Positions 14,608 to 26,637 of a DNA stretch of 31,761 nucleotides are shown in pieces. The notes below the pieces were generated by a model. That model worked only from the letters and a program-made list of their open reading frames with translations, was not told where the DNA came from and did no database searches. The DNA is from a virus. The stretch is taken from the IMG/VR virus record IMGVR_UViG_3300009172_001144, positions 1 to 31,761 of that record. The stretch is one strand, 5' to 3'. Within the stretch, counting starts at the first letter, position 1, and the number at the start of each line of letters is the position of its first letter. A program made the translations under genes and the position numbers.

Positions 14608-15434
14608 AAAAAGTATTAATAACAGGGTGTTCAGGTTACATAGGTTCACATTTATGTAAAGCATTAGATGAAGAATATGATGTTTGGGGTTTAGATATCA
14701 TAGCACCTCAACACCCAATCAAAGAAGGACAATTTATTCAGCATGATATCAATCATCCATTTGGAGAGTTCCCGGAAGAGTTTGATGCAGTCATACATCT
14801 AGCGGCGAGAGTTAGAGTTAATGAAAGTCAGCAGATGCCTATTCAGTACTACATCACTAACCTCAATGGTACGATGAATGTCTTGGCAAAGATAAAGACT
14901 AAGAACTTTATATTCGCATCGACAGGTGTTGCAGAGTACTGTTATGACCCATATGGTACATCTAAGAAGGCGGCGGAAGACTGTGTGATAGAATATTGCA
15001 TGAGACATAATGTACAACCTTTTACTATCTTTAGATTCTACAACGTAGTCGGCTCATCAGGCTTTGCTCCTACTAATCCAGACGGGTTAATGCATAATCT
15101 TTTACAAGCACCTGAGAGAGGAGAGTTTACGATCTTCGGTAATGATTATCACACAACAGATGGTACATGTGTAAGAGATTACATACATGTAGATGAAGTC
15201 TGCGAAGGTATCAAACTAGCAATAGAAGAACCAGCAGAAGAAATTGAATCATTAGGAAATACTACAGGAACATCAGTAGAAGAAATGGTTAACATCTTTA
15301 AAGAAGTAAACAATGTAGACTTTGAAGTTAAGTATGGTGATCGTAGATTTGGTGATCTACCAGTAAGTGTATTAAAAGATAAGTCTCGTTATATGAAAAG
15401 TTTATATTCTATAAAAGAACTTCTCAAAATCTAA
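14604..15434 (+). CDS. NAD-dependent sugar epimerase, GalE-like
   Basis: An extended short-chain dehydrogenase of the UDP-glucose 4-epimerase type. Seen are the NAD loop GCSGYIG (8-14), HLAARVRVNES, the active-site FASTGVAEY with Ser106, the catalytic YGTSK (Tyr117, Lys121), and the GalE-type DGTCVRDYIHVDE before the C-terminal substrate domain. At 276 residues it is shorter than E. coli GalE (338), mainly at the C-terminus, so substrate choice may differ. It would interconvert sugars of a UDP donor, presumably for the glycosyltransferase at 13039. The gene ends convergently with the lipase gene, stop codons overlapping by a few bases, with no clear terminator between them. Confidence 0.9.
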   Translation: MKKVLITGCSGYIGSHLCKALDEEYDVWGLDIIAPQHPIKEGQFIQHDINHPFGEFPEEFDAVIHLAARVRVNESQQMPIQYYITNLNGTMNVLAKIKTKNFIFASTGVAEYCYDPYGTSKKAAEDCVIEYCMRHNVQPFTIFRFYNVVGSSGFAPTNPDGLMHNLLQAPERGEFTIFGNDYHTTDGTCVRDYIHVDEVCEGIKLAIEEPAEEIESLGNTTGTSVEEMVNIFKEVNNVDFEVKYGDRRFGDLPVSVLKDKSRYMKSLYSIKELLKI

Positions 15435-16744
15435 GAAGCAGGTGGATCATCTCCACTACTAGATGTTCTAGCTGGCACAACAGGGAAATGGCAACTTCCA
15501 CCTTGTGATTCATTTCCCGCATTTAAATGTTTATTAAAAGTCAATAACGGATTGTTAATTGCATAACTATAACAGCAACATGGATTATGATTAGGGTTTG
15601 CTTGCCATTTGGCATTAGGTTGAACTTTACCTGGATCTTCACCGGGTATAACAGTAACACCGTTATACGTGAAAGTTTTATTTAACTTAATACTACCACT
15701 AAAACCTATACTATCCCAATTTGTATCTCCTACTTTTACAATTTTATATACTGTATTTGTAACTAAAGCATCAAGAGGATATGTATCTGGATAATTTGCA
15801 TTAAAATGAACATTGTATCCGACCTCGGCATATGTCACAGCACCCGGGTCTTGTATTTCTCCAGGCACTTTCGGAACACCATCTGACTCATTAGTCAATC
15901 TCCAGAACCTTTGACCTAATTTATATCCTGATCGATCACGTTGTGCATCAAACCACTTTTTAAAACCTGCATCTCCCACTCTCGGACTAGCACTAACTGA
16001 TCCTCTTATTGTTTCAAATAGTTGATCATCATTACTGTCTACTAAAGTAGTAGCCCATGCTGTAACTAATGTAGCAACAGAAGAACCTAAACTATGTCCA
16101 GTAACTATAAGATGTTTAATACCTAAAGCAGGCAATTTGTGTAAGGCCTCATATAATGTTTCTGTTTGTCCAGCTACTGGCATACCATGCGGACGTGCGC
16201 CTGCCTCATTACCAGGGGTAGAATTAATACCGAGCCCAGTAAAATATTCAGAAAATCCTTTATGACATTTTCCTTCTCCGCCTGAAATAGGATTGTTTAC
16301 ATGAAAATATTTAAGATCAATGAGAAAATCAGATGCCGTTAATGTACCTCTGAATATTAGATAAGCCGTATGAGGTTTACCCTTTTCAGTTGCTATAAAG
16401 CAGGCTGGACCTCTGTTGGGTGCACCGAATCCGGAATAAGGAGAATAAACAGTCCAAATTACCGGTGAAATAGGTGTGAAGTTTGTCCACAATGCACCGT
16501 ATACTGTTTTTGCTGGCTCAGAAGGTTGACTATCTACATCGCAAGTGGATCTAAAAGTAGGTGACCATGACACATCATTTTTGTTGCCAGGTTCTTCAGT
16601 TCCGCCGGGGTAGCCATTTTGCCAGTCTTTGGCCATTTGACTAGCGACATCCACTAACATACTACATCTTTGTTGTTGGTCTATGTATTCGGGTTCTTCA
16701 ACTATTGGGTGTTGAATCATTTGCCCACGTGGATAATGGAGCAT
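15431..16744 (-). CDS. Class-3 lipase with inserted virion-type beta repeat
   Basis: The 437-residue protein has the alpha/beta-hydrolase core of fungal-type class-3 lipases. YLIFRGTLTASDF forms the oxyanion strand, CHKGFSEYF follows, and VTGHSLGSSVATL holds nucleophile Ser218. WRLTNESDGVPKVPG holds the acid Asp288, and His386 or a nearby His in NPNHNPCC is the candidate base. Residues about 329-377 are an insertion (TVYKIVKVGDTNWDSIG, later KTFTYNG) that resembles beta repeats of phage structural proteins. No signal peptide is seen. SD AAGGA precedes the ATG. With the gene at 18643 it is the only minus-strand pair and has a late-type promoter, so a virion-borne lipase is plausible. Confidence 0.85.
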   Translation of the reverse strand: MLHYPRGQMIQHPIVEEPEYIDQQQRCSMLVDVASQMAKDWQNGYPGGTEEPGNKNDVSWSPTFRSTCDVDSQPSEPAKTVYGALWTNFTPISPVIWTVYSPYSGFGAPNRGPACFIATEKGKPHTAYLIFRGTLTASDFLIDLKYFHVNNPISGGEGKCHKGFSEYFTGLGINSTPGNEAGARPHGMPVAGQTETLYEALHKLPALGIKHLIVTGHSLGSSVATLVTAWATTLVDSNDDQLFETIRGSVSASPRVGDAGFKKWFDAQRDRSGYKLGQRFWRLTNESDGVPKVPGEIQDPGAVTYAEVGYNVHFNANYPDTYPLDALVTNTVYKIVKVGDTNWDSIGFSGSIKLNKTFTYNGVTVIPGEDPGKVQPNAKWQANPNHNPCCCYSYAINNPLLTFNKHLNAGNESQGGSCHFPVVPARTSSSGDDPPAS

Positions 16745-16753
16745 AAAAAGTCC

Positions 16754-18643
16754 TTAATGCATTAATAAATAAGTGCCTAAAACGTCTGCACGGTTAGCAG
16801 AATCGTCTCCGTCACCTGGCTTGACTATGACGTTATATATTCCTCTTTTGAATGAACGATCTCCGTCTGCTACACCACTGCCGACTCCGCCGCCTCCCAA
16901 TGGTATCTTCATCATTTCATCATATGTGATTATAGATTCAGGTTTGATAGAATATTTAAGTGCCATGCGGTCTTTGAATGTTTGATAGTCTTCTTCACTG
17001 TTCCATTGCCATCCGCCATCAGGTCCTTTAACTAGTCTGGTTCCATCTTTTAATAAAAGATCACCGAATAAATCTTTTGGAACAACAACTGAATGTTTTT
17101 CTAGACCAAAGTCTACTCGTTTTTGTTCTGCTTTCCTTGCACCCATTGAGAAATTAATCATAAAGTTGGGTGGTCTGTTTTGTGTTGAGCCTGAGACATC
17201 TGCCATTTTAGTATAAGCATAGAAGTCTACTGTAGGATGAGTAGCGGCTAAACTGTATGCTAACTGTAAGTATTCGTCTGAGAAGAAATCTCCAGCATCA
17301 TGCCAACGCACAACAACTTTATGTTTCTCTAGTTTAGCATCACCTTTACGTTTTTGTTCATCAATCTCTGCATTTAATTTATCAAAGAAACCACTTGGGT
17401 CATTGTATAAGAAGTTTAAGATTCTTGTTTGACTCATTGATACTGGAGCCCACTGTACATATCCACCTTTTAAAGCATAACAGAATGTCTTACACTCTCC
17501 TGCTCCTGGACAAGTATTGATAATAACGAACTCTTTCTTTCCTTCATCGTAGCCTAAACCTGTTAAAGCAGGTAAACCAATGTTATAGAAGATACTAGTT
17601 GTACCGTCACTGTGTTGCATTTTTTCATTTTGCTTAAGTAACTTAGTAGGCCTTTGAGTAATGTCAGCAGCCAGTTTATCTAAATCAAATCTTTTTCCGT
17701 CTGGATCTACGATTGGAATAAGATTTTTAACATTTGATCTATGTACATAAGGAAGTTTATACTTGTCAGTTTTTCCTTTCTTTTTATCTAAAATTCTATC
17801 TAAGTAATCATTTAATTCTTTATCTTTAATAGGTTTAGATTGTGCATCAATTGCTTCCTCTACTTCTTCTCCAGAATCATAGTCTTTTACGATCTTACCA
17901 GTCTGTCCGCCTAATTGTTTGATATGTCTTAATTCTCTGGCCCATTCACCTTCATCTTTGTCAGCTTTTGGTTTGTCTTTGCCTATAAATCTATCAGCAG
18001 GGTCTTTAATTCTGTCTGCTAAATCTTTTTCTGTACTTTTACTGTATGGAACACCTTCAGCATAAACTTCTGTATCTTCAGGGTCGGTGACTTCTAATTC
18101 ATCTGCTACACCAGTAACAACTTCATCTTCTCTGGGACCAAAGCCTATTCTAACTGGATCTCCGTTTTGATCTACATGTCCTGTACCTACGCATATTTCA
18201 CATGCTTCAAATTCTCCGTCATCATCATATGGATCAATAACTACTCCATCGCCGTCACAGTAACTACACTGATATATTTTGCCAACTTCAGCATTAGCCG
18301 AGTCAGCCGCAGTAGGCTCCCAATCAAATTCTTCTAATGTTTCTGGTGCAGATCCAAAGTATGCATCCATTTCACTATCGATAGTATCTGGTTTATTGTC
18401 AGAGATGTTTTCTTCTACTTCTGCATTTGGAATGCTAACACCTTCGTCTTTCAAAAATTCGGGTAATGTTTCTACTTCCCAACCATCGATCATAGAATCC
18501 ATGGTTTCTTCTGCATGTCCTGCAAATCTTGCATTATTTTTAACGAAATCTGATGTTTCGCCAGGATTAGATTCGGGTAAATGCGGCTTGACATTACTCT
18601 CATTTTCCGTTAACATGTTCAGTATGTTTCTTATATCACTCAT
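16754..18643 (-). CDS. GP88-family protein with N-terminal DnaJ-like zinc motif
   Basis: A 629-residue protein in three zones. The first 120 residues are acidic and start MSDIRNILNMLTENES, a style of opening seen on several marine phage proteins. Residues 126-155 hold CSYCDGDG and CEICVGTG, two CxxCxGxG-type units as in the DnaJ zinc finger. The C-terminal half carries the GP88-like core: NTCPGAGECKTFCYA (Cys378, Cys384, Cys388), RWHDAGDFFSDEY and VDFYAYTKM. GP88 proteins occur in many phages; their function is not established, but the Cys cluster and HDxGDF motif suggest a metal- or Fe-S-bound enzyme, perhaps like DUF5131. It ends 9 nt before the lipase start. Confidence 0.85.
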   Translation of the reverse strand: MSDIRNILNMLTENESNVKPHLPESNPGETSDFVKNNARFAGHAEETMDSMIDGWEVETLPEFLKDEGVSIPNAEVEENISDNKPDTIDSEMDAYFGSAPETLEEFDWEPTAADSANAEVGKIYQCSYCDGDGVVIDPYDDDGEFEACEICVGTGHVDQNGDPVRIGFGPREDEVVTGVADELEVTDPEDTEVYAEGVPYSKSTEKDLADRIKDPADRFIGKDKPKADKDEGEWARELRHIKQLGGQTGKIVKDYDSGEEVEEAIDAQSKPIKDKELNDYLDRILDKKKGKTDKYKLPYVHRSNVKNLIPIVDPDGKRFDLDKLAADITQRPTKLLKQNEKMQHSDGTTSIFYNIGLPALTGLGYDEGKKEFVIINTCPGAGECKTFCYALKGGYVQWAPVSMSQTRILNFLYNDPSGFFDKLNAEIDEQKRKGDAKLEKHKVVVRWHDAGDFFSDEYLQLAYSLAATHPTVDFYAYTKMADVSGSTQNRPPNFMINFSMGARKAEQKRVDFGLEKHSVVVPKDLFGDLLLKDGTRLVKGPDGGWQWNSEEDYQTFKDRMALKYSIKPESIITYDEMMKIPLGGGGVGSGVADGDRSFKRGIYNVIVKPGDGDDSANRADVLGTYLLMH

Positions 18644-19715: not shown

Positions 19716-19820
19716 ATGTATGATATAAGTGAAAAAGGTGAGAAACAATTTAAACGAGTAGAATACCTACTGTGGGGATTATACCCCATGATCATATTAA
19801 TGTTTTGGATGATTGATTAA
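19716..19820 (+). CDS. 34-residue membrane peptide
   Basis: Reads MYDISEKGEKQFKRVEYLLW and then a hydrophobic run GLYPMIILMFWMID. One helix could span the membrane. SD GAGG lies upstream, and the stop overlaps the ATG of the YggX-like gene (TTAATGG), supporting a real gene. Function unknown. Confidence 0.6.
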   Translation: MYDISEKGEKQFKRVEYLLWGLYPMIILMFWMID

Positions 19821-20143
19821 TGGAAAATTTAGTATTTTGTAAGAAGTACCAAGAAGAATTACCAGCAATGGATTTTCCCCCTTTACCAGGTCCAGCTGGC
19901 AAAGAGTTATTAGAAACTGTTTCTTTTAAAGCATTTGAGGCTTGGAAGTCTCATCAAACTACTCTAATCAATGAACGTAGAATGGATTTATCTAATCCTG
20001 AATCTAGGGCTTTCTTAATAGAAGAAATGCATAAGTTCTTTAATAACCAAGAAGTTGCACAAGCAGAAGGATTTGTAGAACCTGAAAAAGCACTTGATGA
20101 TGCAGTCAAATCATTTACCCCTCCCCCTCCCCCAATAATTTAA
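19820..20143 (+). CDS. yggX: YggX-family Fe(2+)/Fe-S protection protein
   Basis: The first 90 residues follow E. coli YggX (91 aa): LVFCKKYQEELPAMDFPPLPG with Cys7 at the position of the conserved YggX Cys, then GKELLETVSFKAFEAWKSHQ, TTLINERRMDLSNPESR and AFLIEEMHKFFNN. In bacteria YggX protects Fe-S proteins from oxidative damage and helps iron traffic. An added tail of about 17 residues ends in a proline run (TPPPPPII). The ATG overlaps the preceding stop. With IscU at 11651 it gives this phage a second Fe-S maintenance protein, about 8 kb away from the first. Confidence 0.9.
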   Translation: MENLVFCKKYQEELPAMDFPPLPGPAGKELLETVSFKAFEAWKSHQTTLINERRMDLSNPESRAFLIEEMHKFFNNQEVAQAEGFVEPEKALDDAVKSFTPPPPPII

Positions 20144-23153: not shown

Positions 23154-23195
23154 CATTTAGCAGTAACAGCAGTTCCTCAGAGAAGACTCAAACTA

Positions 23196-23229
23196 AAATG
23201 CCCATTTCGCAAGATTTGGGCATTTTTTT
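23196..23229 (+). terminator. Intrinsic terminator
   Basis: AAATGCCCA (23196-23204) pairs with TGGGCATTT (23217-23225), a 9-bp stem with a 12-nt loop, followed by further T residues. It ends the preceding transcript 2 bp before the next -35. Confidence 0.75.
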
Positions 23230-23230
23230 G

Positions 23231-23259
23231 TTGACTTTGGGTACCATTTTGTGTATACT
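23231..23259 (+). promoter_or_regulatory. sigma70-type promoter with operator-like TTTGGGTACC
   Basis: TTGACT (23231-23236), 17-bp spacer, TATACT (23254-23259); start near 23266, leader of about 26 nt. The bases TTGACTTTGGGTACC are identical to those of the promoter at 25301, with the second half of the palindrome degenerate (ATTT). Confidence 0.7.
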
Positions 23260-23291
23260 ATATAAACACTTGACACATATAGGTACACAGA

Positions 23292-24995
23292 ATGACATTT
23301 TATCGACATATAATAATTGTTCCTTTAGTAGGAATTCTTACAGCATGTGGTGGTGGAGGTGGAGGTGGTACTGATGTTGCTGGCGCCCTTATTACAGCAG
23401 GCGGAACTACTGGGGGAGGAAATAGTGGCAACACTACTACACCAACCGTATCATTATCAGCAAGTACCTATGAGATTGTATCAGGAGATAAGACTACTTT
23501 AACTTGGTCTAGTTCTGATGCATCGTCATGTACAGCATCTGGAACATGGTCAGGGAGTAAAGCACTAAGCGGTAATGAGAACATCACATTAGATAGTTAT
23601 GGTGATTACACGTTCTCTATCGACTGCTCAGGCGCTACAGCAAGTATACAAGTAACTGTATCTGACAATGACAGTGAAGGGTCATGCACTAACCCTCATA
23701 GTGCAAAAATCAAACAATCATATATCGGTAATTACGAAATACCTATACCACAAAATTCATTTAGTGATGATCATCTTAAGTCAATAGGATTTAAAGATTA
23801 CGGCGTAGAGTGGATATATAAAAACTTTGAAAACAGAGGTGATAGTTGGATATCAGATTGTACCCAAGAAGAATATGTCAAGTTAATGTATCGTACAACA
23901 TTACGTCAATTAAAAGATCACGGAGTAACAACTGCATGGGTATATAACTTTGGATATTGGCAAGATCATACAGAGTCTTGGCAACTTAATCATAGTCGTA
24001 AACATTTAAGTGATTGGGTAATAGAATTTATTGCCGAGACCGCACAAGACTTAGGAATGAACATGCATTATGCATGGCAGTTCTTAGCATTAGATGATCA
24101 AAACAATCTTCTGTTTCCCTTTGACGGTCAAGTATATGTTGATATGTCTTTACTAAAAAAAATTATGAATACACATGAAGAACATATATTATGGGAAGCA
24201 GATAGGTTACAGCAATTAGGTGTAACATCTATGTCAGCGGATTGGAGTGCTATGTGGGTATGTTTTTGTGGTCTAGAAAATGAAGCAAGTTCTTCTGAAC
24301 GTGACCGACTTAAAAGTTATTATATGGAAAGAATGGCATCAATAATCTCTCAGATTAAAGGCAGATTTGACGGTGAAGTATATGTAGGTGAAGGTATAAT
24401 ATGGAATGATTCACGTGTATTCGATCAAGTAGACGGTGTCATTGGCAGTCTGCCTAACTTATTATATGATGATGAAGTAGCAGGTGCTAATGTAGAACTA
24501 ATAGAAGAACGTGTATCAGAATATGTTACACAACTCTATGATTCATGGACATGTAACGATAATCAACCATGTTGGGAGTACACTACATATCAGTTACCTA
24601 AAGTTATTTGGAATATGTTTGCTCAAAGCCATGCATCATTCTTAAGTAAAGGTTGGGTCGAAGACGGCTTTTGTACTCAAGGAACTTATGACGATGTTTA
24701 CTATGATGATTGTATGCAATGGAATGTTCCAACTGATTTTTCAGCACAAGCAATATTTATAGAAGGTATGTTACGAGCAATAGATAAACAGCCTTGGTTT
24801 GAAACAAAAGGAACAACAGCAAGTACGGCTTATTGGTTATCAGATACACTTATTCCTGATCAAACTGAAAGGCTTGGATTTGGGCTAGAAGGTTTTCCTA
24901 ATATCTCACAATCATTGAGAGGTAAGCCAGCAGAAAAGATCATTAAGGCTTGGTATACAGGCGAATACGAACAATATAATCCGGAGGTGGAATAA
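23292..24995 (+). CDS. Lipoprotein with Ig-like domain and probable TIM-barrel glycosidase
   Basis: The N-terminus is a class-II signal peptide: MTFYRHIIIVPLVGILTAC with lipobox LTAC and Cys19, followed by a Gly run. Residues about 50-127 look like a bacterial Ig-like domain (TTLTWSSSDASSCTASG). From about 140 to 567 the sequence suits a glycoside-hydrolase TIM barrel: alternating strands and helices with aromatic-rich ends such as VTTAWVYNFGYWQ, MHYAWQFLAL, SMSADWSAMWV and VYVGEGIIW, several with candidate acidic catalysts. It should be anchored in the outer or inner membrane of the host. Such an exported protein is unusual for a phage and looks like a bacterial-type moron gene; the polysaccharide is unknown. 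A private promoter and terminator flank its 5' end. Confidence 0.8.
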   Translation: MTFYRHIIIVPLVGILTACGGGGGGGTDVAGALITAGGTTGGGNSGNTTTPTVSLSASTYEIVSGDKTTLTWSSSDASSCTASGTWSGSKALSGNENITLDSYGDYTFSIDCSGATASIQVTVSDNDSEGSCTNPHSAKIKQSYIGNYEIPIPQNSFSDDHLKSIGFKDYGVEWIYKNFENRGDSWISDCTQEEYVKLMYRTTLRQLKDHGVTTAWVYNFGYWQDHTESWQLNHSRKHLSDWVIEFIAETAQDLGMNMHYAWQFLALDDQNNLLFPFDGQVYVDMSLLKKIMNTHEEHILWEADRLQQLGVTSMSADWSAMWVCFCGLENEASSSERDRLKSYYMERMASIISQIKGRFDGEVYVGEGIIWNDSRVFDQVDGVIGSLPNLLYDDEVAGANVELIEERVSEYVTQLYDSWTCNDNQPCWEYTTYQLPKVIWNMFAQSHASFLSKGWVEDGFCTQGTYDDVYYDDCMQWNVPTDFSAQAIFIEGMLRAIDKQPWFETKGTTASTAYWLSDTLIPDQTERLGFGLEGFPNISQSLRGKPAEKIIKAWYTGEYEQYNPEVE

Positions 24996-25267
24996 TGAGT
25001 ATTTTAGATAACGGTCGTAATGCGGCTAATATTAAATGGGTTGCACAATTATTATATAATGGTGGCATTGATGAATTAACTAGTTGGTTAGCAGAACAAG
25101 ATCAACATACAAAAGATGATATTGCCAGCTTATTTCATAATCTTTCTTATTATATTAGAGAAGAATGTGAGCCAAAACTAACTGAAGCAGAATATGATGC
25201 CCTTGAAGTATCTGAACCTGATTATCCGCAAGTTTGGGAGCCTTTACGACTAGTAAAGCCAAAATAA
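24995..25267 (+). CDS. Small acidic protein, 90 aa
   Basis: A 90-residue, soluble, acidic and helical protein (IKWVAQLLYNGGIDELTSWL, then DDIASLFHNLSYYIREECEP). No known family. The ATG overlaps the lipoprotein stop and has a very strong SD (GGAGGTGGAAT), so it should be made together with the lipoprotein. Its last codons run into the first 10-bp repeat unit at 25262. A partner or immunity-like role is only a guess from the gene pair. Confidence 0.7.
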   Translation: MSILDNGRNAANIKWVAQLLYNGGIDELTSWLAEQDQHTKDDIASLFHNLSYYIREECEPKLTEAEYDALEVSEPDYPQVWEPLRLVKPK

Positions 25268-25291
25268 ATGCAAATAAATGCAAATAAATGC
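25262..25291 (+). repeat. Three tandem 10-bp repeats (AAATAAATGC)
   Basis: AAATAAATGC occurs three times without gaps at 25262-25271, 25272-25281 and 25282-25291, followed by AAAAAAGGC and the -35 at 25301. The 10-bp period puts an A-tract on the same face of the helix each turn, so the DNA may be curved. The position is that of an UP element or activator site. Confidence 0.8.
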
Positions 25292-25300
25292 AAAAAAGGC

Positions 25301-25330
25301 TTGACTTTGGGTACCCAAATACGTTATAAT
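25301..25330 (+). promoter_or_regulatory. sigma70-type promoter overlapped by a 14-bp palindrome
   Basis: TTGACT (25301-25306), 18-bp spacer, TATAAT (25325-25330). The perfect palindrome TTTGGGTACCCAAA (25306-25319) fills the spacer, where a bound repressor would block RNA polymerase. Predicted start near 25337. Confidence 0.75.
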
Positions 25331-25362
25331 ATACTCATATTATGAAAAACAAAGGAAACAAT

Positions 25363-25773
25363 ATGTACTATATAATCGATAACACTAATCAAGCAGTTCA
25401 CAGAGAGCCTAATAAGAAGTCTTATGCTTCTACTCAGTACAAGACTACTGGTGCCGCTAAAGCTGGTATCACTAGAACTGTAAAATACTATCAGAAGGCT
25501 TTTGATCAAGTTGCTGAATGCGTTGCTAATGGTGAATCAGAATACATGGCTAACATGTACAATGCATACCGTGATGCTACTGAAGCACACTTTGGTAGAG
25601 TTCACAAACAGTTTGCATCGTCTTATACGGTTGTTGCTGTTGCAGATTATGTAGAACCAATGATTACTAAGACTGGCATCTGCCCAGGTACTGGTAAGCA
25701 AATCACTGTAACTGAAGGAATTAATACTCCTCATTACATGTCAACACTTTCAGAATCATACTGGAGTGCATAA
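25363..25773 (+). CDS. Hypothetical phage protein, about 136 aa
   Basis: The in-frame ATG at 25342 lies only 5 nt after the predicted transcription start. The ATG at 25363 has SD AAAGGA 7 nt upstream and begins MYYIIDNTNQAVHREPNKKS; I chose that. The protein is soluble, with Lys/Tyr-rich and helical parts (YMANMYNAYRDATEAHFGRV). A segment with GICPGTGKQITV ends in a possible single-Cys loop. It is not a family I can name. It is the first gene after the palindromic promoter. Confidence 0.75.
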   Translation: MYYIIDNTNQAVHREPNKKSYASTQYKTTGAAKAGITRTVKYYQKAFDQVAECVANGESEYMANMYNAYRDATEAHFGRVHKQFASSYTVVAVADYVEPMITKTGICPGTGKQITVTEGINTPHYMSTLSESYWSA

Positions 25774-26451: not shown

Positions 26452-26612
26452 AAAACTTAGCAATAGGCTTTGTCATAGGATATTTGGTTTGTACCTTTAT
26501 CTTTGGTGGAGCAGGCGCTGTCGGAAATTTGGTCGAGCAATCGTTCAGTCAAGTTTCTATATGGTGGAGCCAAGGTCTTGATATGTTTAATAGTTATGAA
26601 CCGAAAGGTTGA
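26448..26612 (+). CDS. Small single-pass membrane protein, 54 aa
   Basis: Starts at the ATGA overlapping the upstream stop, with SD GGAGGAA. It has one hydrophobic helix (IGFVIGYLVCTFIFGGAGAV) and a short polar tail ending in NSYEPKG. Function unknown. The -35 of the ligase promoter lies inside its stop codon. Confidence 0.65.
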   Translation: MKNLAIGFVIGYLVCTFIFGGAGAVGNLVEQSFSQVSIWWSQGLDMFNSYEPKG

Positions 26613-26637
26613 CATTGAATTTGATTGGCTGTATAAT
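26609..26637 (+). promoter_or_regulatory. Near-consensus sigma70 promoter for DNA ligase
   Basis: TTGACA (26609-26614), 17-bp spacer, TATAAT (26632-26637); start about 26644 and a 17-nt leader with a strong SD (AAGGAG) before the ATG at 26661. The -35 is preceded by AAAGG, as in other promoters here. Confidence 0.8.

Follow-up and report, generated by a model that had tools for sequence, protein, structure and literature searches.

Genes and promoters at the locus

The locus lies in a window of 31,761 nt (31.8 kb), by which we mean the whole stretch of DNA that was analysed, covering positions 1 to 31,761 of the IMG/VR virus record IMGVR_UViG_3300009172_001144. Two promoters, P1 and P2, enclose a predicted lipoprotein gene and its small partner ORF, and P2 is followed by a gene for a 143-aa protein (Table 1). 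The lipoprotein gave no sequence match in Pfam, PHROGs or the PDB. Its AlphaFold model, built from 14 homologues (mean pLDDT 72.7, with the signal and linker poorly modelled), recovered GH113 beta-mannanases as the best PDB matches in Foldseek searches (E 9e-11, TM 0.67 by target, 10–14% identity), and on account of these matches the original prediction of a glycosidase between the two promoters is well founded at the level of the modelled fold, from which a glycosidase activity may be presumed. The 143-aa protein had no match in Pfam or PHROGs, and its AlphaFold model (pLDDT 88) found no fold match in the PDB; given the lack of either match, it was rejected as a candidate regulator. As originally noted, no regulator gene was recognised among the ORFs of the window that were scanned. 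Elsewhere in the window we noted a phage-borne member of the YggX family of Fe(2+)-trafficking proteins (19820–20143, plus strand; PF04362, E 1.7e-29) and, at 15431–18643 on the minus strand, class 3 lipase-like and GP88-family proteins, which are encoded by the only large minus-strand genes seen. Rfam gave no match in the window.

Table 1. Genes, promoters and associated elements at the locus, with coordinates in the window
Feature	Coordinates	Strand	Remarks
Intrinsic terminator	23195..23229	+	AAAATGCCCA ... TGGGCATTTT, then T run; abuts P1; RNA fold -19.4 kcal/mol, z -5.3
Promoter P1	23231..23259	+	TTGACT-17-TATACT; -10 TATACT at 23254-23259, spacer 17; half-site TGGGTA at 23238-23243
Lipoprotein gene (567 aa)	23292..24995	+	Predicted; GH113 beta-mannanase-like fold; driven by P1
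Partner ORF (90 aa)	24995..25267	+	Start overlaps the stop of the lipoprotein gene
Three A-rich 10-bp repeats AAATAAATGC	25262..25294	+	Just upstream of P2; spaced one helical turn
Promoter P2	25294..25330	+	AAAAAGGC-TTGACT-18-TATAAT; -10 TATAAT at 25325-25330, spacer 18
Palindrome TTTGGGTACCCAAA	25306..25319	.	Perfect, 14 bp; reaches from the final -35 base into the spacer
143-aa protein gene	25342..25773	+	No assigned family; P2-driven; start probably at 25363, giving 136 aa
Strong promoter without half-site	26609..26637	+	Upstream of DNA ligase gene; internal comparison for P1 and P2

The 15-mer TTGACTTTGGGTACC occurs exactly at 23231–23245 and 25301–25315, both on the plus strand, and at each site it runs across the -35 into the spacer of a promoter with a good -10, confirming the shared element of the original prediction. 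The coordinates likewise bear out the perfect palindrome at the second site, where P2 holds both half-sites, TGGGTA (25308–25313) and TACCCA (25312–25317), while at 23231 only the left part of the palindrome is exact. A search of the window for the 15-mer with up to three mismatches found three matches against 0.6 expected, a count reached in 1 of 100 shuffles; there is no copy within two mismatches besides the pair itself. TTTGGGTACCCAAA is the window's sole perfect palindrome of 14 bp, where about three would be expected at its composition, and another four independent, exact 15-mer repeats are present; the repeat and the palindrome are therefore not significant when each is taken alone. The significance of the shared element derives instead from its position in promoters and its conservation across relatives.

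Conservation in syntenic relatives

Orthologues of P2 were fetched through the 143-aa protein, independently of the motif, from 50 relatives, and the promoter is present in nearly all of them. The set comprises 20 distinct promoter sequences, 19 of which have the start TTGAC[AT]T. In about 40 syntenic relatives the block AAAAGGC-TTGAC[AT]-TTGGGTA hardly varies, whereas variation is common in the columns needed for a full palindrome (GGGTAAGAATT, GGGTACAATTT, GGGTATATTTT, GGGTACCCATT and others), with a mean information of 1.50 bits in the conserved block versus 0.78 in the right-half columns. The full palindrome is found in 3 of the 19 distinct orthologues, so that the palindrome, which had been put forward as the operator unit, is rejected as the conserved unit. 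Dyad symmetry is not conserved among orthologous sites in the way that a symmetric operator would lead one to expect. Since the left block is nearly invariant and the right half of the palindrome is not, the conserved unit is the half-site TGGGTA. For P1, whose orthologues were identified from the adjoining terminator, the sequence is conserved less strictly (GGGTACC, GGGCACC, GGTCACC, GGGTCTT, GGTACCC and others), with 0–6 of the 7 palindrome pairs. The terminator directly upstream of P1 is kept in its orthologues; P2 has no adjacent terminator, and A-rich regions upstream of the promoter are also seen in its orthologues. The orthologues of the comparison promoter ahead of the ligase gene have a different spacer, which is conserved.

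Most of about 40 loci retain the gene order terminator-P1-lipoprotein-90aa-P2-143aa-224aa-ligase promoter, and the lipoprotein gene is missing from several loci. The original prediction that the two sites bracket the lipoprotein and its partner holds in the window, but in two relatives (L018 and L051) the 90-aa gene has a block promoter of its own. In a further locus, the promoter of a 90-aa homologue (L171:2631, plus strand) has a spacer with a perfect palindrome of a different sequence, CTACCATATGGTAG. P1 and P2 are slightly more similar within a genome than between genomes (p 0.015), which faintly suggests the single regulator that had been proposed for both promoters; ancestry could explain the same tendency.

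The half-site occurs in both orientations

Promoters were also collected without regard to their spacers, using the pattern AAAAGGCTTGAC-N16-19-TATAAT, and removal of one coding family and near-duplicates left at least 65 spacers. Among the matches listed, the commonest 6-mers of 65 spacers were TTTGGG (7, with 0.38 expected) and TACCCA (6, with 0.09 expected), which have a common GGG/CCC core in opposite orientation; none of 300 shuffles reached the top count. Scanning for the right half alone recovered 89 viral stretches; of the 44 distinct promoters that these represent, 31 lack GGG on the left. In the 267-kb genome G046 the right-half promoter gave 9 matches as against 0 for the reversed control, and 16 of its 31 strong promoters have the right-hand word (ACCCA or GCCCA; for example TTGACTTCTTACCCAAATCTGCTATAAT), and in a few the word is turned round at almost the same position (for example TTGACATTTGGGTAATTTCTGCTATAAT). 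This genome (L561–L574) belongs to a large marine phage related to the window and encodes IF-1-like, Fe/Mn superoxide dismutase and S-adenosylmethionine decarboxylase proteins.

TGGGTA is used forwards, reversed as TACCCA, or in both forms merged into TGGGTACCCA, and the palindrome of the window is two overlapping half-sites. The element is enriched in promoters and usable in either orientation, as expected for the recognition unit of a symmetric operator, and in this respect behaves as a protein-bound half-site would. Its distance from the -35 varies by 1–2 bp between classes, the dyad spacing is unequal among promoters (compare the G004, G021 and G035 forms), and in contrast to a classical dimer operator many promoters have a single half-site only. 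Outside the GGGTACCC class, palindromes occur at close to chance frequency. Spacer symmetry as a general trait was rejected: outside the TTGGG and TTTGTT classes it measured 3.17 versus 2.96 in shuffles (pooled p 0.005), and gapless spacer palindromes there are near chance.

Distribution and downstream genes

In viral contigs the exact 15-mer is found in promoters before several unrelated genes, along with chance matches elsewhere, and the exact palindrome in public viruses lies mostly outside promoters. A scatter away from promoters, of the kind that the original prediction had named as evidence against it (motif copies inside genes at chance frequency), is thus seen for the palindrome and not for the half-site. 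The pattern GGCTTGAC[AT]TTGGGT...TATAAT was recovered in 90 stretches of viral contigs versus 3 in a species collection of 84,980 bacterial and archaeal genomes, figures that give a contrast rather than an exact ratio because the collections differ in size; a stricter block pattern had 0 matches in the same 84,980 genomes. A host origin of the motif was rejected on these counts, and a sequence-specific conserved element in both spacers, as first proposed, is supported and almost confined to viruses. The sequence counts overstate the evidence, because the relatives are not independent. Of 15 records examined, 5 carry a T4-type DNA polymerase, among them G021, G035 and, at the end of the record, G033. 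The T4-type DNA polymerase gene of another genome (G037:C1:31709–34195) has one in-frame TGA inside the match.

Block promoters make up only part of each genome's strong promoters (5/17 in G021, 6/12 in G033 and 4/8 in G004, among the matches listed). They precede small accessory ORFs, usually one promoter to each ORF and with a leader of ~30 nt, and most of those ORFs that were tested had no family match. The earlier picture of a private bracket around one moron is accordingly abandoned, as the same promoter class drives many small accessory genes.

In the cultivated-phage collection no DNA similar to the window region was found, and the promoter words gave weak partial matches only, one of them in the siphophage vB_VpS_BA3 of Vibrio, which has CGGCTTGACTTTGGGTAAC without a clear -10 (L355:272–310); T5-like Vibrio phages as carriers of the class were not confirmed. 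Two loci considered as operator pairs (L019 and L054) were rejected, as the two copies are the arms of a terminator-like hairpin; in the former (L019:6768–6800) TTTGGGTACCCAAA and TTGACTTTGGGTACC form these arms (GGTACCCAAAG...CTTTGGGTACC, then TTTTG). We found no report of this spacer word in the literature; papers containing the string were judged coincidental from their titles.

Comparison with known systems

T4 early promoters are strong sigma-70 promoters with extra conserved bases (PMC2988021). Like them, the block promoters have a near-consensus -35 and -10 surrounded by extra conserved sequence and are presumably read by a host-type polymerase, and genomes related to the window encode a T4-type DNA polymerase; unlike them, the block class has TGGGTA inside the spacer, in either orientation. 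In T4 middle promoters a MotA box centred at -30 takes the place of the -35 (PMC2988021). P1 and P2 both have the near-consensus -35 TTGACT, and neither has a TGCTTtA (MotA) box at the -30 place.

The cultivated OM43 phage Melnitz (MZ577097; L381–L387) has about a dozen promoters of the form TTGAC[AT]TTTGTT-N5-AACATG-TAT[AC]AT (for example at 32277, 66590 and 73149 of the record), in which the inverted repeat TGTT-N5-AACA fills the spacer; G037 has a few promoters of this kind. The accessible text of the Melnitz paper predicts promoters, finds no recognisable middle promoters and does not describe this repeat (PMC9004378). Melnitz, too, is a marine T4-type phage with a repeated, sequence-defined spacer, but the sequence, geometry and centre are different and it has no TGGGTA class. 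In view of the inverted-repeat spacers of Melnitz and G037, it seems that phages of this group repeatedly mark promoters with a spacer word.

The PeSL cassettes (Arbiol 2010, Comeau 2014) reportedly consist of a strong sigma-70-like promoter joined to a stem-loop terminator, and recombination between copies is said to shuffle genes. As far as this outline of the cassettes goes, P1 is like them in that a terminator directly precedes a strong promoter before accessory genes; P2, which has no such pairing, is unlike them. Among the loci, neighbouring genes vary in presence or absence. PMC4503421 cites these promoter/stem-loop cassettes of T4-type phages. Classical phage and bacterial operators between the -35 and -10 resemble the block in their spacer position and, at P2, in being palindromic; they differ in that the second half-site is usually missing in the block orthologues and the regulators proposed for the block are candidates.

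Alternative explanations

The block might be an extended strong early promoter without any regulator, its extra bases aiding binding or opening by the host polymerase, a role also proposed for those of T4 early promoters, a reading that we consider possible though doubtful. The near-consensus -35 and -10, the A-rich upstream region and the centring of the conservation on the -35 (AAAAGGC-TTGAC-WTTGGGTA) are all in keeping with it, as is the precedent of T4 early promoters with consensus regions beyond the usual elements (PMC2988021). An asymmetric contact with polymerase should not, however, function in both orientations, and this explanation also sits poorly with a block that bacterial and archaeal genomes almost entirely lack and that, in the genomes bearing it, only some of the equally strong promoters contain. 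An effect of a GC triplet on DNA shape, likewise independent of orientation, is another possibility.

Shared ancestry could by itself account for the likeness of P1 and P2, which would then say nothing of common regulation, if promoter cassettes had been copied by recombination before accessory genes in the manner of PeSL. The small downstream ORFs with their individual promoters and short leaders, the terminators abutting P1 and several other block promoters, and the three block copies within about 1 kb in G004 would all agree with such copying. We nevertheless think ancestry unlikely to be the whole explanation: the identity of P1 and P2 ends at the 15-mer, no terminator adjoins P2, terminators are only modestly commoner at block promoters (19/104 versus 17/144), and copying alone does not predict that promoters alike in other respects have the word in opposite orientations. 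This reading is in any case not exclusive of regulation. That the P2 palindrome is merely a chance completion of the conserved left element, CCCAAA happening to follow TTTGGGTA, appears highly improbable. The variable right half in orthologues, the number of palindromes expected per window and their near-chance frequency outside this class would fit such an accident, but 13 of 45 distinct block promoters have GGGT followed by ACCC, against about 0.2 expected, perfect palindromes with other outer bases occur (ATTGGGTACCCAAT, AATGGGTACCCATT), and the right half is found alone elsewhere.

Proposed function

P1 and P2 belong to a class of strong sigma-70-type promoters that occurs in a large, mostly uncultivated group of T4-related marine phages. 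We rate as about evenly balanced the prospect that a DNA-binding protein of the phage reads the half-site in their spacers, probably as a repressor. TGGGTA would be read by a separate DNA-binding protein rather than through an asymmetric contact with RNA polymerase, which is the likeliest arrangement because the word works either way at nearly the same place between the -35 and -10. A repressor is probable, since a protein bound in the spacer would most simply block or compete with polymerase; a phage-encoded repressor of this sort may turn the block promoters down after a first burst of expression. With one half-site at P1 and both at P2, a dimer would bind more tightly at P2. Of the repressor operator originally placed in the spacer, the position and the conservation of a specific element are supported, with a half-site and not the palindrome as its unit. 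Operators of MerR-type activators have over-long spacers of 19–20 bp. An activator of that kind is disfavoured at P1 and P2, with spacers of 17 and 18 bp, because longer spacers would be needed.

Candidate regulators were sought among small proteins common to block-bearing genomes. A 63-aa MazE/AbrB-fold protein (PF04014, E 1.6e-8) is present in G021, G022, G023, G033, G046 and G048, and was not found in Melnitz, G037, G001 or G035. An 89-aa winged-HTH protein (PF14090, E 9.5e-7) is present in the same six genomes, with distant copies in Melnitz and G001. The window locus itself is contained in G021, G022 and G023; G035 has block promoters, and neither candidate was found in it. Both proteins are candidates through co-occurrence in related phages, which is not evidence of binding. 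More tentatively, a large group of marine T4-type phages may share an early-promoter regulon in which a putative phage-encoded AbrB/MazE-fold or winged-HTH protein reads TGGGTA half-sites in either orientation and switches batteries of small accessory genes, with the number of half-sites, one or two, setting the strength.

Little is known of how marine T4-type phages without cultivated members control their early genes. A promoter class that is recognisable from sequence, nearly restricted to viruses and marks small accessory genes would allow first-response genes to be predicted, with candidates for host takeover among them, and would indicate a shared regulator open to testing.
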